IMG/VR virus record: IMGVR_UViG_3300010379_001564
Span: 1 to 21,047 of that record
DNA from: a virus
DNA length: 21,047 nt
Direction: 5' to 3' (one strand)
The notes under the pieces were generated by a model, which worked only from the letters and a program-made list of their open reading frames with translations, searched no databases and was not told the DNA's origin. Within the stretch, counting starts at the first letter, position 1. Each line of letters begins with the position of its first letter. Positions 2,589 to 19,560 of the stretch are shown here, piece after piece. The translations under genes and the position numbers were made by a program.

Positions 2589-2613
2589 CCTGATATCTGA
2601 TCGCTGACATCTG
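2589..2613. repeat. R1 repeat (TGATCGCTGAT-type short tandem)
   Basis: CCTGATATCTGATCGCTGAC belongs to a family built of tandem 9-10 base units of the form TGATcgC/TGATatC. Related copies lie at 7177, 8525 and 8895 between genes, and at 12621, 13683, 15224 and 17346 inside genes. Confidence 0.75.
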
Positions 2614-3473: not shown

Positions 3474-3530
3474 GTCATTCCGACCGGAGGGACGGCGCTT
3501 TTGGCCGTCCCGGAGCGGAGGAATCCCTCT
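3474..3530. repeat. R2 repeat, full copy between genes
   Basis: It opens with GTCATTCCGACCGGAG and ends with GGAATCCCTCT. ATTCC pairs with GGAAT to close the element. The interior hairpin is GGGACGGC/GCCGTCCC around GCTTTTG. See 11585, 12566, 15145, 15907, 17309 and 19292 for copies that share the ends but not the interior. Confidence 0.8.
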
Positions 3531-7050: not shown

Positions 7051-7069
7051 GTGCTTCGCAGTCCTGTAG

Positions 7070-7122
7070 CTCAGGCCTTCAGGCCTGAGGTTTTTCTCTT
7101 GTCATTCCGCGGTGACGAATCC
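7070..7122. repeat. R3 hairpin plus remnant of R2
   Basis: CTCAGGCCTTCAGGCCTGAG (7070-7089) is a perfect stem with a TTCA tetraloop, followed by GGTTTTT. Next to it GTCATTCCG (7101) and CGAATCC (7116) are the ends of a shortened R2 element. The same R3 stem recurs inside the scaffold gene at 12584-12603, there nested in an R2 element. Confidence 0.7.
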
Positions 7123-7176: not shown

Positions 7177-7207
7177 CCTGATCGCTGATATCTGATCGCT
7201 GATATCC
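7177..7207. repeat. R1 repeat in the gap before the tail-spike-like gene
   Basis: Three adjoining units of the type TGATCGC/TGATATC lie here, ending 4 bases before the stop codon of the 115-residue gene (7211). Confidence 0.75.
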
Positions 7208-8439: not shown

Positions 8440-8495
8440 GATCTTGAGGGTGCCCCATCCTTCGCGTTTTTGGCGAAGGGTGGGCTCTTACGTTC
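8440..8495. repeat. R5 repeat
   Basis: CTTGAGGGTGCCCCATCCTT leads into a stem pairing CCCATCCTTCGC with GCGAAGGGTGGG (one wobble-type mismatch) around GTTTTTG, then CTCTTACGTTCTAGCG. Copies with the same edges but different loops lie at 11687 and 19498. Confidence 0.75.
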
Positions 8496-8524: not shown

Positions 8525-8554
8525 CTTGATAACTGATATCTGATCGCTGATATC
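8525..8554. repeat. R1 repeat
   Basis: Three adjoining TGATAAC/TGATATC/TGATCGC units lie in the gap between the adaptor-like gene and the holin-like gene, close to the R5 element. Confidence 0.75.
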
Positions 8555-8894: not shown

Positions 8895-8945
8895 CGCTTC
8901 CTGATCTCTGATCGCTGACATCTGATCGCCGAAAACTGATATCTT
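8895..8945. repeat. R1 repeat, extended copy
   Basis: Four or five units (CCTGATCTCTGATCGCTGAC and following) end near a small CAGCCTCAGGCCTG palindrome at 8948-8961. It lies just after the stop of the 198-residue gene. Confidence 0.7.
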
Positions 8946-8963: not shown

Positions 8964-9557
8964 CTACGCCACGGTCACAAACGGCGCCCCGTGCAGCGCC
9001 GGCGCCGCATCGTCCATCAACGTGTACGCCCACTCCTCGTATTCCCGCTCTTCCCGCGCCGCTCTCTCGTACAACATCCCGCGCTGCTTCGCCTTCGGGA
9101 AACGCCTCGCCCACTCGATCGCCCGCGCCACGTGCTCCACAAGCGTCGGTGTCAACTGCACAAACTCGCCCTTCGGACCTTGCAGCGTAAAACAATGCTC
9201 GTATTCGCCCCGCTCTGGATACGGGCCAAGCGCGGGCACACTCACTCCATTCGCAGTGTCCACCGTCTTCGCGTACCACTCCCGCGGCGGTCCATACGTT
9301 TCCGGAGGCACCCAGCGTTCCACGTGCCAACGGTTCACCTGCGGATACTTCGGCTCCAGTCGCAATTCCACCACTTCCCGCACCAGATCCCCGTGTGTGT
9401 CGCGGTCCTCAAACTTCCCGCCAATCCACGCCAACCTGTTCCAGCCCCAAATCACGCGATAATTGGCCTCGCCAAACCGATTCCGCCCGCCCGCCATTTC
9501 TAATCGCCGCGCCACCTCTCCCGGCGTCTCATGTATTTCTCGAACGAACTCGATCAT
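8964..9557 (-). CDS. Unknown protein of the phage module, 198 residues
   Basis: I start it at ATG 9557 (MIEFVREIHETPGEVARRLE); the longer frame from GTG 9611 would run into the HNH gene. No clear ribosome site precedes the ATG. The protein is rich in Trp, Arg and Glu (RVIWGWNRLAWIGGKFEDRD at about 34-53; RWHVERWVPPETYGPPREWY at about 75-94). The C-terminal half is helical (VEHVARAIEWARRFPKAKQR). No membrane segment and a single Cys. I recognise no family. Its place between capsid and adaptor suggests a head completion or minor virion role. The HNH gene starts divergently 15 bases away. Confidence 0.6.
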   Translation of the reverse strand: MIEFVREIHETPGEVARRLEMAGGRNRFGEANYRVIWGWNRLAWIGGKFEDRDTHGDLVREVVELRLEPKYPQVNRWHVERWVPPETYGPPREWYAKTVDTANGVSVPALGPYPERGEYEHCFTLQGPKGEFVQLTPTLVEHVARAIEWARRFPKAKQRGMLYERAAREEREYEEWAYTLMDDAAPALHGAPFVTVA

Positions 9558-9571
9558 GTTATATATCGCTC

Positions 9572-10186
9572 TTGAACAAGAAGAAACAGACGCCCCAACA
9601 AAGATGGGCACGCAAGAATCGTCCGAAACTCAGGGCCGCCTGCCGCCGCTGGCGCGCCCGCCACCCGGAAAAGCAAAAAGCCGCCACGTATAAATGGAGA
9701 GTAAGACATCTGAAGAAGTGGAATGCCTACCAGCGAAAATGGCGCCGAAGAAACCGCGAACGAACAAATCCAATCCTGCGCGCCAAACGCAAACTCCTTG
9801 GCGATGCGTACAACGCGAAGCGCCGGGATTATCGCCGCCGCAATCTCAACAAACTGCGCAAAGCGGCACGAAGATACTACTGGAAGAACTGGCAAAAAAG
9901 GCGTGTCGAACATCACGCTGCTGTCGCCAAGCGTAAGGGCGCGCCAGGAAAATATACGCAACAGGAATGGCTACGGCTCTTAGCCCAGTATCGCTATCGT
10001 TGCGCATATTGCAATCGAAAGCTGACACGCAAATCGGCTTCGGCTGATCATGTGCTCCCGTTGAGCAGGGGAGGCACAAACTGGATCGCGAACATCGTCC
10101 CAGCGTGTCTCCCATGCAATCAACGAAAGAACTTCCTTACCGCCCAGGAATATCTGAAGCGCCTAAGGAAGGAGCTCAGACGCTAG
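9572..10186 (+). CDS. HNH endonuclease on the opposite strand
   Basis: This is the only convincing plus-strand gene. The frame is open from 9395, but the part before about 9557 is antisense to the 198-residue gene; I take TTG 9572, giving 204 residues. No ribosome site is visible, and an ATG at 9556 lies in another frame. Residues 10-115 are a basic array of helices with recurring W/Y-x2-R/K patterns (RRWRARHPEKQKAATYKWR), typical of DNA-binding spacers in phage HNH proteins. The HNH domain is at 140-190: CAYC (Cys144/147), ADHVLPLSRGG (Asp159-His160), N174, CLPCN (Cys179/182, Asn183) and Lys186. It would cut DNA as a homing-type or packaging-linked nuclease. The stop TAG shares CTAG with the stop of the capsid gene. 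Codon use is A-richer than in its neighbours. Confidence 0.8.
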   Translation: MNKKKQTPQQRWARKNRPKLRAACRRWRARHPEKQKAATYKWRVRHLKKWNAYQRKWRRRNRERTNPILRAKRKLLGDAYNAKRRDYRRRNLNKLRKAARRYYWKNWQKRRVEHHAAVAKRKGAPGKYTQQEWLRLLAQYRYRCAYCNRKLTRKSASADHVLPLSRGGTNWIANIVPACLPCNQRKNFLTAQEYLKRLRKELRR

Positions 10187-11145
10187 TAACCCGACGGTCT
10201 CGCAAGGGTGTCAATGTAAGCTCCAGAGCGAGGGCTGTCGTTCCAGATCTGCATGGCCAGATCAAAATAAAAAATATAGCTCGCTGCAAGTCCGCCGCTG
10301 GCCCCGTAAATCGGAAACACCGTGTTGCCATTGACCTCGTAGAAATCAATGTCCTTCAACACGGCGCGGCCCCAGTGCGCCAAATCCAGGAAATCCACGC
10401 GCGTTTGGTCCGCGTTTACGCTGGACTTGATCGGAATCCCGCTCATAGTCTTCCTGCCGGTGAACAGCAGATCCAGGTCGTTTCCGTTTCCGCTGCCGCC
10501 TTCCTTGATGATGGAACTCACCGTGATGCCCAGATTTTCCCAGGCATGCTCCTGCTCGACCGCCATGTACGCGATCAGCTTGCTCAGGTGGTTGATGCCC
10601 AACGCCTTGCGCACCTTGTTGATCGCCAGCCGCACGTTGGCCGGCGTCAGTGCCGCGTTACCCGCGTTCACGCGCGGCGTCGCCAGTTGCACCGGATAGG
10701 TCGCGCGGTTCAAGTTGAGCCACGTGCCCGTCGTCGCGTTGTTCTGGTGATACTTGATCCCGAACAACGACACCGGCGAAGCGCCGCTCAACCCGTCATG
10801 CACGATCACGTCCGTCGCCACAGTACCGCTGGGAGCGGCGTCCACCGTGATGGTTTGCGTCGGGCTGATGGGATCGGCCGCCACCACGTTGCATGTGCCG
10901 CGGTTCGTCGTTAACGTCGTGTCGTACACCTGAATCGTCTGACCTGCGTACACCAATGCCGCGCCATTCGGCACGCTCATTGTCAACACGTTGCTGGCAA
11001 CGGAACTGATCGTTCCCAGAACCCCGTTCCCCGCCGTCTGGATCAGCTTGTCCAGGAACGAGCGAAACTGCTTCATTCCGTTGGCCACTTCACGCTTGGC
11101 CGCGTTTTCAATCGCCCGTTCCCTTCCCGTCGTCGCGTATTCCAC
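10183..11145 (-). CDS. Major capsid protein, C-terminal part after an in-frame stop
   Basis: The 320-codon frame is in phase with the upstream fragment and is separated from it only by TAA and four codons (ITKL). Its apparent start is GTG 11145, which lacks a ribosome site, so it is really the continuation of one 418-residue capsid gene. It holds the bulk of a coat protein: a helix with REVANGMKQFRSFLDKLIQT, a beta-rich inserted part (GTISSVASNVLTMSVPNGAA through VHDGLSG), then GIKYHQNNATTGTWLNLNRA and the A-domain (AYMAVEQEHAWENLGITVSS, DLDLLFTGRKTMSGIPI). The order fits HK97-fold coats with an insertion domain, as in P22-like phages (inference). It ends with TAG at 10183, overlapping the HNH stop. 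Confidence 0.75.
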   Translation of the reverse strand: MEYATTGRERAIENAAKREVANGMKQFRSFLDKLIQTAGNGVLGTISSVASNVLTMSVPNGAALVYAGQTIQVYDTTLTTNRGTCNVVAADPISPTQTITVDAAPSGTVATDVIVHDGLSGASPVSLFGIKYHQNNATTGTWLNLNRATYPVQLATPRVNAGNAALTPANVRLAINKVRKALGINHLSKLIAYMAVEQEHAWENLGITVSSIIKEGGSGNGNDLDLLFTGRKTMSGIPIKSSVNADQTRVDFLDLAHWGRAVLKDIDFYEVNGNTVFPIYGASGGLAASYIFYFDLAMQIWNDSPRSGAYIDTLARPSGY

Positions 11146-11157
11146 CAGCTTCGTGAT

Positions 11158-11439
11158 TTAAATCGCGAAGCGGAAGAAAATCGGCGACACCTGCGCGACG
11201 TCGTAGGCGGTTCCCGAGCCGCGGCCCAGGTCGCCTCCGTCCGCGTTGTACGACCCGGCCTTCCCACCGGGATTGACCTGCAACGGCAGGCGCAGGTTTC
11301 GTGAAGAAATCTTCTCCACGTCCCCGCGCTGCTGGATCATCGTCAAAAGAATGTCGTCGCGCTCATACAGCAAAGGTACCTTGTCGCGCACCTTCTCGAG
11401 CTGCAACGCGATGACATTCGCGTTTTGCTGTGCTGGCAT
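11158..11439 (-). CDS. Major capsid protein, N-terminal fragment (ends at premature TAA)
   Basis: This fragment starts at ATG 11439 with a strong AAGGAG 8 bases upstream. It reads MPAQQNANVIALQLEKVRDK and DGGDLGRGSGTAYDVAQVSP, typical of the N-arm and E-loop region of a coat protein, and ends SPIFFRFAI-stop after 93 residues. The TAA (11160-11158) is followed in the same frame by ITKLVEYATTGRER, so a single base change from GAA, CAA or AAA would restore the full gene. As it stands the fragment lacks the P and A domains and could not form a capsid. Confidence 0.75.
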   Translation of the reverse strand: MPAQQNANVIALQLEKVRDKVPLLYERDDILLTMIQQRGDVEKISSRNLRLPLQVNPGGKAGSYNADGGDLGRGSGTAYDVAQVSPIFFRFAI

Positions 11440-11584: not shown

Positions 11585-11656
11585 GTCATTCCGAACGCAG
11601 TCCGCGAAGTGAGGTATGGTTTTCCATCGCACGCCCCTCGTGCGATGAATCCCTCT
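11585..11656. repeat. R2 repeat, copy with long inner hairpin
   Basis: It opens GTCATTCCGAACGCAGTCCG and closes GATGAATCCCTC. The inner stem is ATCGCACG/CGTGCGAT around CCCCT. The closing stem is imperfect here (TGAAT instead of GGAAT). Confidence 0.75.
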
Positions 11657-11686: not shown

Positions 11687-11750
11687 TGATCTTGAGGGTG
11701 CCCCATCCTTCGCGCCGTTCGCGCAGGGTGGGTTCTTACGATCGAACGCC
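11687..11750. repeat. R5 repeat
   Basis: CTGATCTTGAGGGTGCCCCA leads into CCCATCCTTCGCG, a loop, and CGCAGGGTGGG, then TTCTTACGATCGAACG. The edges match the copies at 8440 and 19498; the loop differs. Confidence 0.75.
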
Positions 11751-11797
11751 AAAATCTCTCTTCTCTCCGGTTTTTCGTTCAGGTTCTTCTTTAGGGG

Positions 11798-11849
11798 GTC
11801 GGACCTTCAGGTCCGACATTAGGAACCTTGCGCATGGGGCTTCAGCCCC
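11798..11849. repeat. Two R3 hairpins with TTCA loops
   Basis: GTCGGACCTTCAGGTCCGAC (11798-11817) and GGGGCTTCAGCCCC (11836-11849) have unrelated stems but the same TTCA loop. On the minus strand, which is transcribed, the loop reads UGAA. Confidence 0.75.
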
Positions 11850-11914: not shown

Positions 11915-13351
11915 CTACAGTTCCAAAATCTGTTCGTCGCTCAACTTTCCGTAATCCACCCGCCCTCGATTCGCCGTTCTCACAGAAGCGCGTGGTTCCG
12001 ATCTCTCGGTCCGTCCGGAACTCTGCCCGTTCTTCCCAGTCTGCGGCGTGGGCTTCGCAGCGGTTTCTCTCCCCGCCCGCGAATCACCAATCCCCTCTTC
12101 CGCCGCTCGGCTCTTCCCTCTTGTGCCGAGCGTCGCCGCAGTCCAACTCCCCACCACCCGCTTCACCGCTCCCGGCACCAACTGCTGTGCCCGCGCATCA
12201 ATCACTCGCACCACCTGAGCCCTCGTGGCATCGTCAAACCGCCGCGCCCCCAAAATCTTTGCCACCTGCTCGCCCAGTTGCGCGTCGCTCTTTAGAGCCG
12301 CTTCCACATCCTCGCGCACCGCCGCGCCCAATCGTTCCTGCAAAGGTGTTCCCTGCGAAGCCGCATCTCGCCCCGCTCGATCCAGGCTCCTCAAATTGGG
12401 CAGTGCCTGTTCCATTGCTCGCGCAATCGCCCCGCCCACGCTCTTCTCCAAGTCCGCATTCGTCGCCTTCTCAAATCCCACATAAGCCGCTGCCACTTCC
12501 GGCGCAATGACCTCGTTCCGCTGCGCAACTCTCCCGCCCGCGCTCTCCCGTGTTAACTGTGAGTTGTCATCCCGAGCGCTGTAGCTCAGGCCTTCAGGCC
12601 TGAGGGACCTGCTTTTGACTTCCTGGTCGCCGGTCGCTGGTCGCTGGTCACTGCCTTTCCCTCTTTCCTCCAGCAACCTCATCCCCGCCGCCACCATCTC
12701 TCGAAACGCGCCGGGATCCTGCTCCATCAATCTCTGCGCCAATTGCAACCGCGCTGCGCTCAACGCCTCCTCCGGCTTCCCCGCCGCGCCGAAATACGCT
12801 CCATCAAACTCCTCCAACTGCCGCGCGCGTTCCGCCGCCGATTTCGCCTCGTTCACTCCGCCGGGATAAAGCTCCTTCAGCGCCCGCGCCTCGGCAGGCG
12901 TCGCAATCGCCTCGCGATAAGCCGCCGCCTCCTGCCTCGCCTGCACCGCGCCTTCCCACAACTCCTTCGCCTCTTCCCCATGCCAGGGATCGCGCATCCT
13001 CTCCGCCAGCCATTGCGGCGGCGCCTGTGGCACAGACACTCCTGCTTGCCCTGATCCTTGAAGGGTCTGTGCCGGCATCGCACTCGCTTTCCCTGGTTCC
13101 GCAATTCCTTGCCGCGTCGAGTCCCCAGTCGCAGTCTTGCCGTCCGCAACGCCTTCCCCCGCGCCACGTTCCACGCTCGTTCCGGCATCTTCCAGTAGTT
13201 GCTCGTCCGTCAGCGACGAGCCACTCACTTGCCCTGAGCCTCGAGGGGCCACTTCTCCCTCCGGCTCTATTTCCAGGATCTGCTCATCCGTCAGCGCAAA
13301 CACTTCCCGCCCCGCGCCTTGCGCGCTGCTTTGTGTCGCAATCGTTTCCAT
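11915..13351 (-). CDS. Phage scaffolding-type protein
   Basis: The protein has 478 residues from ATG 13351 (GGAGAGTGGG upstream); GTG 13375 is a weaker alternative. It is acidic and Ala/Glu/Gln-rich, with long predicted coiled-coil helices (WLAERMRDPWHGEEAKELWE at about 114-133; helices at 133-230 and 295-400), no Cys, and a basic, disordered C-terminal part. That is the usual look of a scaffolding protein, which shapes the procapsid and leaves it, and the position between portal and coat genes fits. A short motif occurs three times: LTDEQILEIE (20-29), LTDEQLLED (47-55) and LSDEQILEL at the very end (470-478). Residues 231-264 (SDQRPATGDQEVKSRSL and following) come from an R1+R2 repeat insertion; 94-108 come from an R4 element. 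The function is inferred. Confidence 0.65.
   Translation of the reverse strand: METIATQSSAQGAGREVFALTDEQILEIEPEGEVAPRGSGQVSGSSLTDEQLLEDAGTSVERGAGEGVADGKTATGDSTRQGIAEPGKASAMPAQTLQGSGQAGVSVPQAPPQWLAERMRDPWHGEEAKELWEGAVQARQEAAAYREAIATPAEARALKELYPGGVNEAKSAAERARQLEEFDGAYFGAAGKPEEALSAARLQLAQRLMEQDPGAFREMVAAGMRLLEERGKGSDQRPATGDQEVKSRSLRPEGLSYSARDDNSQLTRESAGGRVAQRNEVIAPEVAAAYVGFEKATNADLEKSVGGAIARAMEQALPNLRSLDRAGRDAASQGTPLQERLGAAVREDVEAALKSDAQLGEQVAKILGARRFDDATRAQVVRVIDARAQQLVPGAVKRVVGSWTAATLGTRGKSRAAEEGIGDSRAGRETAAKPTPQTGKNGQSSGRTERSEPRASVRTANRGRVDYGKLSDEQILEL
12560..12661. repeat. Composite R1+R2 (with R3 core) inside the scaffold gene
   Basis: R1 (12621-12652) abuts R2 (12566-12616). The R2 interior is the R3 hairpin CTCAGGCCTTCAGGCCTGAG (12584-12603). 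It is read in frame as GSDQRPATGDQEVKSRSLRP, then EGLSYSARDDN. The length keeps the scaffold reading frame. Confidence 0.8.
13027..13073. repeat. R4 repeat inside the scaffold gene
   Basis: GGCACAGAC (13029-13037) pairs perfectly with GTCTGTGCC (13065-13073). The interior CTTGCCCTGATCCTTGAAGG matches the copy at 18362. It is translated as PAQTLQGSGQAGVSVPQ. A partial copy (CTTGCCCTGAGCCTCGAGGG) lies at about 13229-13248 in the same gene, read as APRGSGQV. Confidence 0.7.
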
Positions 13352-13470
13352 CCCACTCTCCGTGCTCGCTCCCACGTCCGATGTAGGGGCGCAGCACTGC
13401 TGCGCCCCGTCTCGGCAAGATCACATCCAACTGGCGCTTATTGCGGTCACCTTGCTACGCCAAATTCTTC

Positions 13471-16077
13471 TTAGGCCTTCGATACGGCTTGCGTCTGCAT
13501 CGCACGCAAATGCGCTTCCGCGTGCGCCCGCACATTCGCGAAGCCTGCGGGATTCGTCATTTTCGCCGATTGCCCGGCCTCTGAATTCGCCCAGCGCTTG
13601 CACTCCTCGAACTCCACCGCATGATCATCCAGCAACACATCCACGGCCACCGAAGGCAACACAACGCTAGCTGGCCCTGCCTCCTGGTCGCTGGTCGCTG
13701 ATCGCTGATCGCCAATTCCCACCACAATCGGCGCGCTTCCCAGCAACACCTGGATCTCTCGCAACTGCTTATTCCGCGAGTCCTCCCCCGGAATCACCAG
13801 CTCCGTCAACCCCAGCACATTCTTGATGTAGCCAAGATTTGCCGGCTCCGCCAGCGCCTCTTGAATCAACGGATCTTTCAGCCCAAACAACTGCTGCAGC
13901 ACGCCGCGCTGCTGCGACTTCAGCCGCGGAAACGTTTCATCCGCCTCCGGATGCACGCAGATATTCCCTTTCAAGTCGCCCACGCGAATCATCCGCGCGT
14001 CCAGCGTCCCATCCGGACCCAGCAGCGGCACATCCACGTCTTCGGGCCGGTTCTTCCGGAAGCAGTCCACTCCCAGCAGCATCACTTCGCCATAAAACTG
14101 TTTCAGCCGCCGCCACACCAATCCCAATCGCCCCATCGCCTGGTCGCGCGCCATCGCATAGCCGCTCGCCGTCTTCACGTCCTCCATGTTTCCGCCGAAC
14201 ACCGCGGGAAACAACCCCGTCAAGAATTGCGACACCGGCCCAATCAAATCCTGCTGGTGGCGAATCATGTCCGGAGGCACCTGCGCCGCCGCAGGCTGGA
14301 AGAATCCCGCCGCCAAAGGCTGGCCTGGGCGCGCGCGTGCCGGAAAGTGCGCCGCCGGCTCCGCCACTTGGTTCGCCAAAGCGTCAAAGTCCAACACCTG
14401 CGGATCGGCGTAGATCGGCGGAATGCCGTACTCATACGTCTCCGCCTGCATGTTGCTCAACGTGTTGTAGCGTTCCTGCACCTGCACCAGCGAATCGCCC
14501 ACGCTCGGCCGGTTCTGCCCGTCCCCTGGCAGCGCGTGCAGCACCCGCCAGTGATCGTCCATACTTTCGTTGCGCGCCTCGCAGTACACATCGCCCGCAA
14601 AGCCCACGTAGCAGCCATCCGGGAAAAGCGCCAGCAGTTCGTTCCGCACCTCTTCATTCTCAATCCCGTAAAACGCCCACGGCCGCAGCCACGTCCGGTC
14701 AAACGTGATCAGGTTCATCAGCGCGTCGCCAGGATGAATCGACGGCAACCCCTGCTCCACGCTCAACCGCGACACGCGCGCGTACACATCTTCCGGTCCC
14801 TGCGATGGCGCTGCCTCGATTTTTCCCGCCGCCAGCGGATACGCCGCCTTCAATTTCGCGCGATGCACTTCCGCCTGCCATTGCAGGTACGGATACTCGT
14901 GCATTTCATTCGCCCAAACCGGCGTATTCAGCTCCAGCCCGCCGGCAATCGAAATCACTTCCTGGCCATTCGCCACGCGCCGCGTCTCCACCACCCGTGG
15001 CACCGTCACCCGCTCCGCCCTCTTCAGATCCTTCTCGCCCAACTCCGCCCCACACCCCGGGCACGTATAGCTCACCCCTTCAGGGGTGCGGCCTTCCCCA
15101 GCCTCAGCACTCAACCGTCCGTCATCCTCGCCAAGCCCATAATTGTCATCCCGACCGGAGAGCCGCGCCTTTGGCGGCTCGGAGTGGAGGGATCGGGGCA
15201 AGCTCTCCGCGTCTTGCGTGGCTTCCTGGTCGCCGGTCGCCGGTCGCGGGTCACCGTCCTTTTCTCCCCCGAACGGAGTCTCCTTCCCGCACTCCGGGCA
15301 AACCCACACATCCTCCCCCAACGGAATCTCCACCGCCGCCAAAATCTCTTCTTCCCGAAACCCGAACCGCTGCCCATCCTTCACGTACCGCACGTACGCG
15401 CCCAGCTTCCCATCCGTCCACAGAAAATACCCGATCGACGTCAGCAAATGCTCCACATGATTATTTCGCTCGACCAGTTCCGCCACGTCGCTCGCCGCGC
15501 GCGCCGCGGCAATATCCACCAGCGATTGCGCCGATTGCGGATAAAACCGCACGCTCGGCACATCCTGTGAAAGTACCGCCACAAACGACAGTCCAAACCC
15601 CTGATAAAAATTCGTCACAAACTGGTACCGCGGCATCTCTTCCAGCGCGCGGTCGTCATTGAACTTCTGCTCAAACGGCAAGTGCCAGTTCATGTCATTC
15701 GGGTTCCACCACGCATACTGCAACCCTTGCCAGAAAAGCCGCGCCTGGCGGATCCGCCGAATCTCGTGTCGCCGCGCCGTCACGCCCTCTTGCCGGTATT
15801 GCCGCACCAACTCCCGCAGCGCGTTCACCAGTTCCGGCCGCTCTTCCTCCAACTGCTCAAAGTTTGGCCCAAGGTCCATTCCCTGGCTCACCCGACTCTG
15901 CAACCCGTCATTCCGAACGGAGTCCGCGAAGCGCGGGTTTTGCGCCCCGTACGCTTCGTCGGGGCGAGGAATCCCTCCGAACCTCGCCCCAGCGTCACCC
16001 GCCCCCGCATTCCCATCCGCCGGCGCCGTCATTCCCGCTTCCCAATCTGTCATCGCGTTGTCCATGCCGTCTCTCAT
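13471..16077 (-). CDS. Phage portal protein, with several repeat-derived insertions
   Basis: An 868-residue protein from ATG 16077 (AGAAGAA upstream). It forms the ring at one capsid vertex through which DNA is packed. Marks are the helical N-terminal part after about residue 75 (LREL..QYRQEGVTARRHEI), FLWTDGKLGAYVRYVKDGQR (218-237), LITFDRTWLRPWAF (456-469) and the helical stem region EDVKTASGYAMARDQAMGRL (632-651) followed by WRRLKQFYGEVMLLGVD. Even without inserts the length (about 780) resembles large P22-type portals more than HK97-type ones. Two CPxCG knuckles (Cys260/263 and Cys339/342) suggest a zinc ribbon. Inserted repeat peptides occupy residues 34-58, 275-311, 330-336 and 789-799. 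It follows the 77-residue gene and precedes the scaffold gene. The stop is TAA. Confidence 0.75.
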   Translation of the reverse strand: MRDGMDNAMTDWEAGMTAPADGNAGAGDAGARFGGIPRPDEAYGAQNPRFADSVRNDGLQSRVSQGMDLGPNFEQLEEERPELVNALRELVRQYRQEGVTARRHEIRRIRQARLFWQGLQYAWWNPNDMNWHLPFEQKFNDDRALEEMPRYQFVTNFYQGFGLSFVAVLSQDVPSVRFYPQSAQSLVDIAAARAASDVAELVERNNHVEHLLTSIGYFLWTDGKLGAYVRYVKDGQRFGFREEEILAAVEIPLGEDVWVCPECGKETPFGGEKDGDPRPATGDQEATQDAESLPRSLHSEPPKARLSGRDDNYGLGEDDGRLSAEAGEGRTPEGVSYTCPGCGAELGEKDLKRAERVTVPRVVETRRVANGQEVISIAGGLELNTPVWANEMHEYPYLQWQAEVHRAKLKAAYPLAAGKIEAAPSQGPEDVYARVSRLSVEQGLPSIHPGDALMNLITFDRTWLRPWAFYGIENEEVRNELLALFPDGCYVGFAGDVYCEARNESMDDHWRVLHALPGDGQNRPSVGDSLVQVQERYNTLSNMQAETYEYGIPPIYADPQVLDFDALANQVAEPAAHFPARARPGQPLAAGFFQPAAAQVPPDMIRHQQDLIGPVSQFLTGLFPAVFGGNMEDVKTASGYAMARDQAMGRLGLVWRRLKQFYGEVMLLGVDCFRKNRPEDVDVPLLGPDGTLDARMIRVGDLKGNICVHPEADETFPRLKSQQRGVLQQLFGLKDPLIQEALAEPANLGYIKNVLGLTELVIPGEDSRNKQLREIQVLLGSAPIVVGIGDQRSATSDQEAGPASVVLPSVAVDVLLDDHAVEFEECKRWANSEAGQSAKMTNPAGFANVRAHAEAHLRAMQTQAVSKA
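13683..13713. repeat. R1 repeat near the 3' end of the portal gene
   Basis: CCTGGTCGCTGGTCGCTGAT and following bases are read in frame as GDQRSATSDQE (portal residues 789-799), between a conserved-looking IVVGI segment and GPASVVL. No R2 element is attached in this copy. Confidence 0.8.
15071..15088. repeat. R3 hairpin inside the portal gene
   Basis: CACCCCTTCAGGGGTG (15073-15088) has a TTCA loop and is preceded by TATAGCT, as the other R3 copies are by TGTAGCT. It is read as RTPEGVSYT, in the same frame as RPEGLSYS in the scaffold gene. It lies next to the second CPxCG knuckle. Confidence 0.7.
15121..15255. repeat. Composite R1+R2 inside the portal gene
   Basis: R1 (15224-15255) is followed on the minus strand by R2 (15145-15196), with inner stem GAGCCGC/GCGGCTC and closing stem ATCCC/GGGAT. 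A further GTCATCC at 15121 looks like the end of an older copy. It is translated as DPRPATGDQEATQDAESLPR and onward to SGRDDN, and lies between the two zinc knuckles. Confidence 0.8.
15907..15977. repeat. R2 repeat near the 5' end of the portal gene
   Basis: GTCATTCCGAACGGAGTCCG opens it and GAGGAATCCCTC closes it (ATTCC/GGAAT). Inside is GCCCCG/CGGGGC around TACGCTTCGT. It is read in frame as portal residues 34-57 (GGIPRPDEAYGAQNPRFADS). Confidence 0.8.
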
Positions 16078-16097
16078 GATTTCTTCTCTGTGCCCGT

Positions 16098-16126
16098 GGC
16101 ACAGACACTCTTGTCTGTGCTCTTGG
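16098..16126. repeat. R4 repeat, short copy
   Basis: GCACAGAC (16099-16106) pairs with GTCTGTGC (16113-16120), followed by TCTTGGG. It lies in the 258-base gap between portal and the 77-residue gene, which otherwise holds no gene. Confidence 0.7.
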
Positions 16127-16244
16127 GTTTTCTTCTCTGCGAACTCTGCGCTCTCTGTGTCCTCTGCGTTAGTTCTTCGCTTTGAATCTTCGCTATCCCC
16201 GCCCCGTCACCCCTTCATTGCGTCCTGTTCCCTCTTCATCTGCC

Positions 16245-16290
16245 GGGTGCCCCAGGCACGGAGTGTGTGCCTGGGTCTTGGGTTTTTCTT
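16245..16290. repeat. R4-related repeat (CCCAGGCA type)
   Basis: CCCAGGCA (16251-16258) pairs with TGCCTGGG (16268-16275), followed by TCTTGGGTTTTT. The copy at 19427 has nearly the same sequence. The TCTTGGGTT tail is shared with R4. Confidence 0.7.
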
Positions 16291-16335
16291 CTCCGAAACT
16301 GAAAACTTATAACTGAATACTGCCAACTTCGCTCA

Positions 16336-16569
16336 TCACCCCTTCATCGCGTCCAATTCATTCTTCCTCTGCATCTGTTGCCACGACCTCTTCCGCAATC
16401 TCGGCAACTCCACCGGCTTCACCGGCTCCGCAAACTCCACCGGCGGAAATCCCGCCGTCCCCAGCAGCGAATTCAGCAGCGCCCGGTTCTCTCCCCGCAG
16501 TCGCGCCACTTCCTCCTCCAGCATCCCCACGTATCTCGTCTTAAAGAATCTTTTCACGAACTCCCACAT
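16336..16569 (-). CDS. Small coiled-coil protein between terminase and portal
   Basis: A protein of 77 residues from ATG 16569, 31 bases after the terminase stop, with AAGGGTGGGG upstream. Residues 15-38 (GMLEEEVARLRGENRALLNS) form a short coiled coil with leucine-heptad spacing. A Pro/Val/Glu-rich linker (FPPVEFAEPVKPVELPRLRK) and a basic tail follow. Position and spacing put it in the terminase-portal operon. I recognise no family; an accessory of packaging or portal assembly is a guess. Confidence 0.6.
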   Translation of the reverse strand: MWEFVKRFFKTRYVGMLEEEVARLRGENRALLNSLLGTAGFPPVEFAEPVKPVELPRLRKRSWQQMQRKNELDAMKG

Positions 16570-16599
16570 CGCCCCACCCTTCGCGCTTCCCTCTCGCTT

Positions 16600-18312
16600 T
16601 CACCAATTCCACCGCCGCCGCGGCAACCGCTGCGGCCCAAACTGCTTCCGCGCTTCCGCCTCCAACCTCTGAAACTGAATCGCCCGCGAAGTCGCATCTT
16701 CCGCCGTCACCTGCCGCGCGATCTGTTCGCCCAGCGGCATTCCTGGAATGAATCGCACTTGAGAATAAAGGGGCGGAGCCTGCCCCGCCCCGGGTCCGCC
16801 TCTGGCGGTTGCCCCAACACCGGCGTATCTTGCGCCGGGAACCATTCCATACCGCGCCGCATCGGCCGGATCGTCGCCTTCCACCTTGCGCACATCCTCG
16901 ACCCGCCGGTTGTCCCGTACCAGTTGCGGCAAGCACTCAATCAACTTCCCGCAATTCTCCGTGATCACCCAGGCGTCCTGCTCCAGCAGTTGATACATCA
17001 ATTGCCATCCGCCAATCCGGTCGTCATCCGCCTGGGAAGGCCGCGGCAATCCATTCGCCGCCAGCACTTCTCCCAGTTGCTCCGCAATCGAAGCCTCGCT
17101 GGTGCGGTGCGCAAAGGCATCCGGCGAAAGGTAAATCTCCTGGATCTTCTCGTCCTTACAACGCTCGGCAATCGCCTGCCCCAGCATCCGCGGCGACAAT
17201 CCGTTCTGCACAAACTCCCGGTACGTCACAATCCTTCCGGTCGCGCCCTCCCGCACTACGTCTGCTTGTGCGCCTGCCTCAAAACCGTCATCCCGCCGCC
17301 CCCCGTTTGTCATCCCGAGCGAAGCGAGGGATCTGCTTTTTTCTTCACTGGTCGCTGGTCGCTGGTAACTGGTCGCTGCTCTCGGCATCGCGCAATGCCA
17401 ATACACCGCGCTCGGATGCTGGAATCCCCAGTCAATCGAAATCCACCGCGGCCACCACGACTGCATGCCGAGCTCTTCGGGCCGCGCCGTGTGTCGCCCA
17501 ATTTCAAACAAGTCGAAGTACTGCCCCGCGAAAACGTCCCAGTCCCCGTCCAGAAACGCTTTCCGCAATTGTTCCGGCAGCGCCTCCAGCGTCTTCCGGT
17601 AATTCAGGTCGTTCGCATAAATCGGATTGTCTTCCATCCGTGCGCGTATGAAGTCGTAATCCTGCGGATCGTACTGCTCCGGCCTCTCGAATCCCGTCGG
17701 CGGTTGCTTGTCGACCCACAGCGCCTTCACCCACGCGTGCCCAATGTTCCCCGGGTTCGTCGCCCCCGCCATGCAGGGAAACGTTCCCGGAATCGGGCAC
17801 CTGTTCCGCGAGGTCAGAAATTGCCACTGCTTCAGCGTGAAATGCGTCAGCTCATCGATCCCGATGAACAGAAACTCCGCGCCCTGGTACTGGTAAACAT
17901 CATTCTCATCCCGGCAGTATCCGAACCGTATCGTCGAACCGTTGGTTAGGGTCACTAGATGTTTTGCTTCGTTGTAGCTGCGGTACTTGCGGCGCGGCAC
18001 ATCCCGTCGGAACTGCGCGATGAGCGAACTCTCCAGTTCCGGATACGTCCTCCTCAAGAGAAGTGAATCGCTTCCTGGATACTTTTTCGCTAGACGGATC
18101 GCTTCCTCGAGCAGCGCCCTTGTCTTTCCTGGCCCCGCCGCACCGCCGAATAGTCGGTATTTCGCCGTCGAGTCGTGGAACTCCTGCTGCCGCGGGAACG
18201 CTTCGTAGGATTTCTCCGATTCGCGCTGAATACTTTTCTTGTGCCGCCCCGCTCTCAGGCAGCCCGATATATGCACCGCCTTGCGACTATCTTCCCGTGT
18301 TCGCCTCTTCAT
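16600..18312 (-). CDS. terL: Terminase large subunit (packaging ATPase and nuclease)
   Basis: The 570-residue packaging motor drives DNA into the procapsid and cuts it. Walker A is GGAAGPGKT (56-64), Walker B is FLFIGIDEL (147-155, Asp153/Glu154) and the coupling motif is GATNPGN (183-189). The RNase H-like nuclease shows SIDWGF (Asp294), SPDAF (Asp398) and DPADAARYG (Asp481/Asp484). All key residues are present, so it could be active. An insert of about 30 residues (312-343, SYQRPATSEEKSRSLASLGM and following) lies in the loop after the first nuclease strand (SAVYWHCAMP) and before TGRIVTYREFV, where homologs as I remember them have a short turn. I chose ATG 18312 (AAAGGCGG upstream) over GTG 18336. 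Confidence 0.9.
   Translation of the reverse strand: MKRRTREDSRKAVHISGCLRAGRHKKSIQRESEKSYEAFPRQQEFHDSTAKYRLFGGAAGPGKTRALLEEAIRLAKKYPGSDSLLLRRTYPELESSLIAQFRRDVPRRKYRSYNEAKHLVTLTNGSTIRFGYCRDENDVYQYQGAEFLFIGIDELTHFTLKQWQFLTSRNRCPIPGTFPCMAGATNPGNIGHAWVKALWVDKQPPTGFERPEQYDPQDYDFIRARMEDNPIYANDLNYRKTLEALPEQLRKAFLDGDWDVFAGQYFDLFEIGRHTARPEELGMQSWWPRWISIDWGFQHPSAVYWHCAMPRAATSYQRPATSEEKSRSLASLGMTNGGRRDDGFEAGAQADVVREGATGRIVTYREFVQNGLSPRMLGQAIAERCKDEKIQEIYLSPDAFAHRTSEASIAEQLGEVLAANGLPRPSQADDDRIGGWQLMYQLLEQDAWVITENCGKLIECLPQLVRDNRRVEDVRKVEGDDPADAARYGMVPGARYAGVGATARGGPGAGQAPPLYSQVRFIPGMPLGEQIARQVTAEDATSRAIQFQRLEAEARKQFGPQRLPRRRWNW
17286..17378. repeat. Composite R1+R2 inside the terminase gene
   Basis: R1 (17346-17378) is followed by a minimal R2 (17309-17334: GTCATCCCGAGCGAAGCGAG ending GGGATC) and by a second truncated R2 end, GTCATCCCG, at 17287. 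It is translated as SYQRPATSEEKSRSLASLGM, then TNGGRRDDGF. Confidence 0.85.
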
Positions 18313-18361
18313 TCCGCCTTTGCGCCAGTTCCCCACTTATCCGCATTCGTGTGCGTCGTCC

Positions 18362-18445
18362 TGTGGCACAGTCACTCCTGCTTGTCCTGAGCCTCGAAGG
18401 GGCTGTGCTCTTGGGTTCCCCGGGAACGCCGATCTCCCGATCGGC
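18362..18445. repeat. R4 repeat and a second hairpin upstream of the terminase gene
   Basis: GCACAG (18366-18371) pairs with CTGTGC (18403-18408); the interior CTTGTCCTGAGCCTCGAAGG resembles that of the scaffold-gene copies. Next to it GCCGATC (18428-18434) pairs with GATCGGC (18439-18445) around TCCC. No gene lies in 18313-18496. Confidence 0.7.
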
Positions 18446-19291: not shown

Positions 19292-19370
19292 GTCATCCCG
19301 ACCGAAGCGGCCCGATTCTTCTTCCGCGCTGCATTCCAGCGCGTCGGGCCGCGTAGTGGAGGGATCGGGG
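19292..19370. repeat. R2 repeat, longest copy
   Basis: GTCATCCCGACCGAAG opens it and GAGGGATCGGGG closes it (ATCCC/GGGAT). The middle holds GCGGCCCGA/TCGGGCCGC (perfect 9) and, inside that, CGCGCTG/CAGCGCG around CATTC. Confidence 0.8.
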
Positions 19371-19426: not shown

Positions 19427-19476
19427 GCCGGGTGCCCCAGGCACGGAGTCTGTGCCCGTGTCTTGGGTTCCCCCCG
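19427..19476. repeat. R4-related repeat
   Basis: GTGCCCCAGGCACGGAGTCT, then GTGCC and TCTTGGGTTCCCCCC, match the copy at 16245 almost base for base on the left side. Confidence 0.7.
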
Positions 19477-19497: not shown

Positions 19498-19560
19498 CTT
19501 GAGGGTGCCCCATCCTTCGCCCGCCTCCGGCGGGAAGGGTGGGTTCTTACGCTCTAACGT
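19498..19560. repeat. R5 repeat
   Basis: CTTGAGGGTGCCCCATCCTT, then CGCCCGCCTCCGGCGGGAAG and GGTGGGTTCTTACGCTCTAA. The inner stem is CCCGCC/GGCGGG. Edges match the copies at 8440 and 11687. Confidence 0.75.

Follow-up and report, generated by a model that had tools for sequence, protein, structure and literature searches.

The 21,047-base virus record IMGVR_UViG_3300010379_001564, analysed at its full length and hereafter called the window, carries short dispersed repeats on one strand, several of which are read in frame within genes of the phage head module. It is likely that these repeats, belonging to the class of host repetitive extragenic palindromes (REPs), have hit phages in a strand-specific manner, and that selection kept the copies that were open and compatible in length within dispensable loops. 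The loops that contain in-gene copies have short or empty counterparts in relatives, and the copies are read in whatever frame happens to be open. Their orientation apparently follows the replication strand regardless of gene direction, and peptide design is apparently not the cause. The window is contained at 99.96% identity in a longer record of 27,849 bases (G011).

Host repeats in the loops of phage head proteins

A detector covering six repeat families (R1, R2, R3, E4, E5 and E6) found 25 elements in the 21 kb of the window, all on the + strand, with nine inside the terminase, portal and scaffold genes; the intergenic copies, roughly 16 in number, share the strand of those in genes. R1 consists of tandem 7-nt units (CTGATCG, CTGATAA or CTGGTCG), and R2 is a palindrome with the consensus GTCATYCCGA...GAGGRATC. 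The other families join a tag to a palindrome (TGTAG in R3, GTGG in E5, GGGTGC in E4 and E6), and the R3 and E4-E6 types are dispersed in genomes G001 and G006. Shuffled viral DNA of the relatives yielded a single R1 match in all and zero for the remaining families. At a laxer setting, the heptamer detector had given nearly as many matches in shuffled as in real host DNA, and the threshold was then raised.

The late genes lie on the - strand in the order terminase, portal-like, scaffold-like and major capsid gene. Since neither the portal-like nor the scaffold-like gene matched a Pfam or PHROG hidden Markov model, gene order is the sole basis of these two names. The genes and the elements within them are as follows.

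16600..18336, - strand: large terminase gene (PF04466/PF03237 and PHROG terminase matches), with an in-frame R1+R2 insert in a nuclease-domain beta-hairpin
17348..17382, + strand: R1 heptamer array (CTGGTCG units) in the terminase, read ATSYQRPATS
17309..17336, + strand: R2 element GTCATCCCGAGCGAAGCGAGGGATCTGC in the terminase, read RSLASLGMT
13471..16077, - strand: portal-like gene, named by position between the terminase and major capsid genes; repeats at the N-terminus, in the CxxC...CxxC linker and near the C-terminus
15907..15973, + strand: R2 read in frame at the N-terminus of the portal (GIPRPDEAYGAQNPRFADSVRNDG)
15226..15253, + strand: R1 array in the zinc-ribbon-like portal linker, read DPRPATGDQE
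15145..15194, + strand: R2 element in the portal linker (RSLHSEPPKARLSGRDDN)
15065..15091, + strand: degenerate R3 in the portal linker (family D9, 74%), read TPEGVSYT
13684..13711, + strand: R1 array near the portal C-terminus, read GDQRSATSDQE
11915..13375, - strand: scaffold-like gene, named by position between the portal and major capsid genes; E5, R1, R2 and R3 inserts
13027..13072, + strand: E5 REP read in frame within the scaffold gene (AQTLQGSGQAGVSVPQ)
12623..12657, + strand: R1 array in the scaffold gene, read SDQRPATGDQE
12566..12609, + strand: R2 of the scaffold gene; its loop is an R3 palindrome
12580..12605, + strand: R3 element TGTAGCTCAGGCCTTCAGGCCTGAGG (GTAG-type REP) nested in the scaffold R2, read LRPEGLSYS

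A sequence-only reading of the window had already placed R1 in the terminase, twice in the portal and in the scaffold. All four arrays were recovered there with the peptides it quoted, three of the four adjoining R2, and R3 was confirmed in the scaffold and, in degenerate form, in the portal. It had missed the R2 element at the portal N-terminus and the E5 element of the scaffold.

Portal relatives were gathered from 80 viral loci and 47 loci in Acidobacteriota metagenome-assembled genomes (MAGs), some of the latter being prophages in long contigs, such as that of Candidatus Acidiferrum typicum UBA7541. Across about 75-110 relatives, the terminase nuclease hairpin, the portal CxxC...CxxC linker and the portal C-terminus are repeatedly filled by differing host repeats, and alignment reveals short empty loops at the same sites in other relatives. 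Loop length ranges from 6 to 80 aa in the terminase hairpin, from 15 to 120 aa in the portal linker and from 0 to 89 aa at the portal C-terminus. The terminase insert is placed between WISIDWGFQHPSAVYWH and RIVTYREF, which we take to be neighbouring strands of the RNase H-like nuclease; certain relatives have a loop of few residues here (YWHATRSDGVVVTYREF, YWHSQDKTRTVTYREF), and others have up to 80. This supports the earlier proposal that the insert lies in a loop between nuclease strands, a placement taken from the alignment because the AlphaFold models were of too low quality (mean predicted local distance difference test score 46.9 for the portal and 36.5 for the terminase); the terminase profile found no match among solved structures. 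The portal linker is bounded by a pair of invariant CxxC motifs on either side, C260/C263 and C339/C342 in the protein of the window, and its contents vary by phage, including YQRSATSDQE, RSLDSGLQKAQTSARDDN, LTPEGVSYT, EGWGTR, LNAEVAETQRARR and LVAQG repeats. The terminase hairpin and portal linker alignments thus show in-frame insertion into protein genes that have insert-free relatives.

Repeat presence changed many times on the portal tree, where R2 presence changes at least 13 times in the linker, at least 12 times at the portal C-terminus and at least 9 times in the terminase hairpin, R1 and R2 states change at least 7-13 times at each of the three sites, and R3 presence also changes many times, in counts that pool gain with loss and vary with the detection threshold. 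A few portals are frame-shifted or stopped within the linker (L074, L095 and L042), possibly through assembly errors. The suggestion that selection kept only harmless inserts is supported by loops of variable length, relatives with empty loops, frames that follow the open frames and the few broken portals.

Several loops stand apart. The portal linker of L096 (422-3178) contains about eleven consecutive LVAQG-type repeats, a tandem expansion of a short repeat, and the terminase hairpin insert of L143 exceeds 150 residues, far more than any other. The terminase or portal loops of L038, L041, L042, L048, L050 and L103 hold more unrelated host repeats (NAEFAESAEHAEK, LRSFGPAKGAGPQDD, LNTATPRGHRG, LTAETQR), which fall outside the six-family detector.

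R1 and R2 are dispersed in host genomes, and a class-wide pattern search extended their spread to 33 of 121 genomes, with contigs so short that the search is silent on strand. The two closest hosts possess 15 and 10 Y1_Tnp/RAYT (REP-associated tyrosine transposase) genes, and palindromes flank most RAYT genes examined: E5 in Ca. Acidiferrum typicum (G001, L274), R3 in G003 (L276), and palindromes with window-like tags and tails of E7 type (L273/L287), E6 type (L286-L292) and E4 type (L284/L293). Judged by sequence, R3, E5 and the E4/E6/E7 types qualify as REPs as commonly defined (PMC3733652, PMC6006769). R2, also palindromic, is an acidobacterial dispersed repeat, and R1 is similar to the TAACTGA heptamers described in PMC4679880.

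Strand preference and replication

The repeats are dense in the phages, and in 14 phage genomes or prophages, elements opposite to the late genes outnumber the others by 181:5. The six-family detector gave a strand ratio of 338:19 over the 80 viral loci, and a search with the R2 pattern returned 57 matches in 12 viral records, each record having them on a single strand. Copies adjoining open reading frames (ORFs) of the opposite strand keep the phage-wide strand in 10 of 10 cases, a small number that includes small ORFs. The single orientation noted in the window stands for all its elements; in some relatives, genes contain elements in either orientation.

Host elements have a density of 0.13 per kb across 1.48 Mb of host DNA and are mostly intergenic; 13 of 194 lie within genes in hosts versus 67 of 186 in phages, and the true host rate is lower still, because most of the 13 resemble chance hits of R1 or R2 on conserved proteins or doubtful ORFs. 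In tandem gaps, host orientation relative to genes is unbiased (60 sense, 55 antisense), which for hosts rejects control by gene direction, whereas strand bias per contig is pronounced (chi-squared 70.5, 15 degrees of freedom, p 4e-9). The elements lie on the strand of negative GC skew by 106:17 where skew exceeds 0.1 (codon-3 skew averaged over both gene directions) and by 154:28 in the larger set above 0.05, and to an equal degree whether they run sense (50:10) or antisense (47:8) to genes. Two families outside the detector show the same bias (E7, 15:3; CCCAGGTTC, 33:14), and on contig C145 of G006 both the skew and its few elements switch near dnaN. The acidobacterial scan showed a strand bias that follows skew, but none relative to genes. 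The phages have positive skew (about +0.02 to +0.26) on their late-gene strand, so that the strand rule is the same in phage and host. Positive skew marks the leading strand judging from the dnaN switch and the majority of rplB and atpA clusters, with rpoB disagreeing in both genomes tested; the opposite polarity, suggested by rpoB alone, was overturned by the further markers. A host stretch with skew of +0.3 and dense elements all on one strand (L149-L151; G006:C78, 20000-50000) may be a further prophage or an island.

Insertion biased to one replication strand, as in IS200/IS605-like single-strand insertion, accords with these ratios (host 154:28, phage 181:5). Dispersed repeats of acidobacterial hosts (the RAYT-linked R3 and E4-E7, the R2 palindrome and the R1 array) would have reached the phage and prophage lineage many times, and insertion, or survival afterwards, may have been tied to the replication-exposed strand, as expected for single-strand mobilisation by an HUH/Y1 transposase. 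Selection would then remove copies that shift the frame, add a stop or strike the folded core, leaving inserts carried as tolerated, probably disordered peptide. A stronger version, which we put forward tentatively, is that a replication-coupled single-strand process shared with the host writes the repeats on one phage strand, so that orientation records replication direction and head-protein loops serve as repeated in-frame landing sites giving rise to new protein segments.

Several observations weigh against this account of strand-specific entry. Counts overstate independence, since the elements of related phages are partly inherited. The host DNA consisted of MAG contigs with gene calls from a simple codon-usage caller, and contigs C71 and C186 deviate from the skew rule. 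None of the RAYT genes examined was seen to be flanked by R1 or R2. Polarity is a further difficulty. IS608 uses the lagging-strand template. In our data, the strand on which GTAG comes first is the negative-skew strand, which by most markers, though not by rpoB, is the lagging strand (the leading-strand template). TnpAREP acts on the GTAG strand (PMC8266576). The simplest RAYT model thus appears to have the wrong polarity, and either the polarity differs from that of IS608 or the bias arises by loss.

Biased loss, with replication removing asymmetric hairpins preferentially from one template strand, is an unlikely explanation but one with points in its favour: palindromes are known deletion substrates, the polarity appears opposite to that expected of IS608-type insertion, and the rule is common to host and phage. 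It does not readily account for families with different loops and hairpin-free heptamer arrays, all of which have the same sign in phages.

Control by transcription, with terminator-like hairpins and their T-tracts on the + strand allowing only antisense copies to survive in a long late operon, is improbable. Several elements are indeed terminator-like on the + strand (7070, 8446, 16098 and 16251), and the phage late module is a single long operon-like run. Against this, host strand tracks replication skew with no preference relative to genes, its bias being equal for sense and antisense elements; phage elements beside opposite-strand genes, including small ORFs, keep the phage-wide strand; and R1, which has no hairpin, obeys the rule in phages.

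Reading frame and remaining features of the window

The same loops are refilled in many lineages, and inserts are far commoner in phage than in host genes, as would be expected if phages adaptively lengthened or diversified portal and terminase linkers with repeats. This explanation is very improbable, given that sequence and length are unconstrained, many repeat types appear equally good and relatives with empty loops exist.

The sequence-only reading had also argued from a shared frame within each family, an argument that did not survive closer analysis. The 7-nt unit of R1 leaves a remainder of one when divided by three, and therefore any frame of one strand yields the same cyclic heptapeptide, making R1 uninformative on frame. 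In the common 26-base form of R3, TGA closes two frames of the strand used, and the 31 distinct copies are all read in the remaining one; this is forced, because the form has one open frame on either strand. E5 is read in one frame in 11 of 11 cases and E4 in 5 of 5, from about three and four or five sites, respectively, so that they prove little. R2 is found in each of the three relative frames, with 41, 12 and 14 distinct peptides: the terminase site is read as RSLASLGMT in some phages and as DPSTAAAKAAASARDDS in others, and the R2 halves of the window differ in relative frame (LGMT in the terminase, ARDD in the scaffold). On average, R1 has 0.46 open frames of three on the canonical strand versus 2.54 on the reverse strand, whereas R2 has about 2.0 on the strand used in phage genes versus 2.6 on the unused one.

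The idea of a selfish, protein-coding-like element, whose DNA evolved a single open frame and orientation for reading as a peptide, draws on the uniform frames of R3, E5 and E4 and on the open reverse strand of R1, but it is largely refuted and highly improbable, being neither needed nor compatible with the three frames of R2, its greater openness on the unused strand, intergenic copies in the same orientation, and host copies that are almost all intergenic and indifferent to gene direction.

The intergenic elements of the window are the following.

2590..2610, + strand: R1 array (detector)
3474..3525, + strand: R2 (detector)
7065..7090, + strand: R3, identical to the scaffold copy
7178..7205, + strand: R1 array (detector)
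8448..8485, + strand: E4 (GGGTGCCCCATCCTTCGC...GAAGGGTGGG)
8526..8553, + strand: R1 array (detector)
8901..8942, + strand: R1 array (detector)
11585..11651, + strand: R2 (detector)
11691..11733, + strand: E4
11797..11820, + strand: E7 (GGTCGGACCTTCAGGTCCGAC), palindrome shared with flanks of host RAYT genes
16096..16121, + strand: E5
16245..16275, + strand: E6 (GGGTGCCCCAGGCACGG...CCTGGG)
18363..18408, + strand: E5
19292..19366, + strand: R2 (detector)
19430..19448, + strand: E6 (detector)
19503..19540, + strand: E4

Three further genes deserve mention. The major capsid gene has, in the stretch 11145-11160, an in-frame TAA at 11158-11160 that is absent from the 99.96%-identical G011, reflecting a sequencing error or a variant. 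An HNH endonuclease gene (9395-10186, + strand) lies amid the late genes, opposite to its neighbours. A gene for a ClpP-like SDH-type protease (1239-2417; PF01972, PHROG 11747) is seemingly separate cargo or a head-protease-like gene.

Relation to known repeats and implications

Intragenic REPs of the GTAG/CGTC classes, described in O. terrae, Thauera and Rickettsia (RPE-4/6; PMC3733652), are likewise short dispersed palindromes in frame within genes, linked to RAYTs in the GTAG class; the same work reports CGTC repeats without an associated transposase gene and mentions acidobacterial RAYTs alongside these intragenic REPs. Those REPs sit in cellular genes, often for DNA repair, whereas the present ones sit in phage head genes, hit a few loops repeatedly and follow a phage-wide strand rule. 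Rickettsia palindromic elements (RPEs) such as RPE-1 are similarly tolerated inside proteins, but, compared by description, RPEs end in CGTC and have no heptamer array, and the window tags are GTAG, GTGG or GGTGC. No report of intragenic REPs or RPEs in phage structural genes was found in the literature searched.

The palindromes flanking RAYT genes (R3, E5 and E4/E6/E7-like) also recall REPINs and bacterial interspersed mosaic elements (BIMEs), with their RAYT transposases and single-strand HUH chemistry (PMC3116915, PMC8266576, PMC6006769). However, phage copies are mostly single, whereas REPINs and BIMEs are inverted doublets, and the strand polarity in phage and host appears opposite to the IS608 rule. 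The REPIN/RAYT literature searched yielded no description of a replication-related strand bias of dispersed REPs.

R1 is the same kind of 7-nt array as the TAACTGA direct repeats of Beggiatoaceae, cyanobacteria and Bacteroidetes (PMC4679880), with stops in the forward and an open reverse orientation, but its units are richer in G+C, often joined to R2 and placed inside phage structural genes. TAACTGA copies within genes are mostly reverse-oriented because the forward orientation has stops, and in Microcystis the sampled sets located between stop codons shared a single chromosomal orientation (PMC4679880).

Intragenic REPs and RPEs were already known in cellular genes; the replication-locked strand rule is the surprising part. 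Its polarity does not appear to fit the simplest IS608-like model. The recurrence of inserts in the same loops across the phage lineage provides a natural map of insertion tolerance in terminase and portal proteins, and a strand rule that phage and host share and that does not depend on transcription makes the spread of REPs directly testable and points to a replication-linked step.

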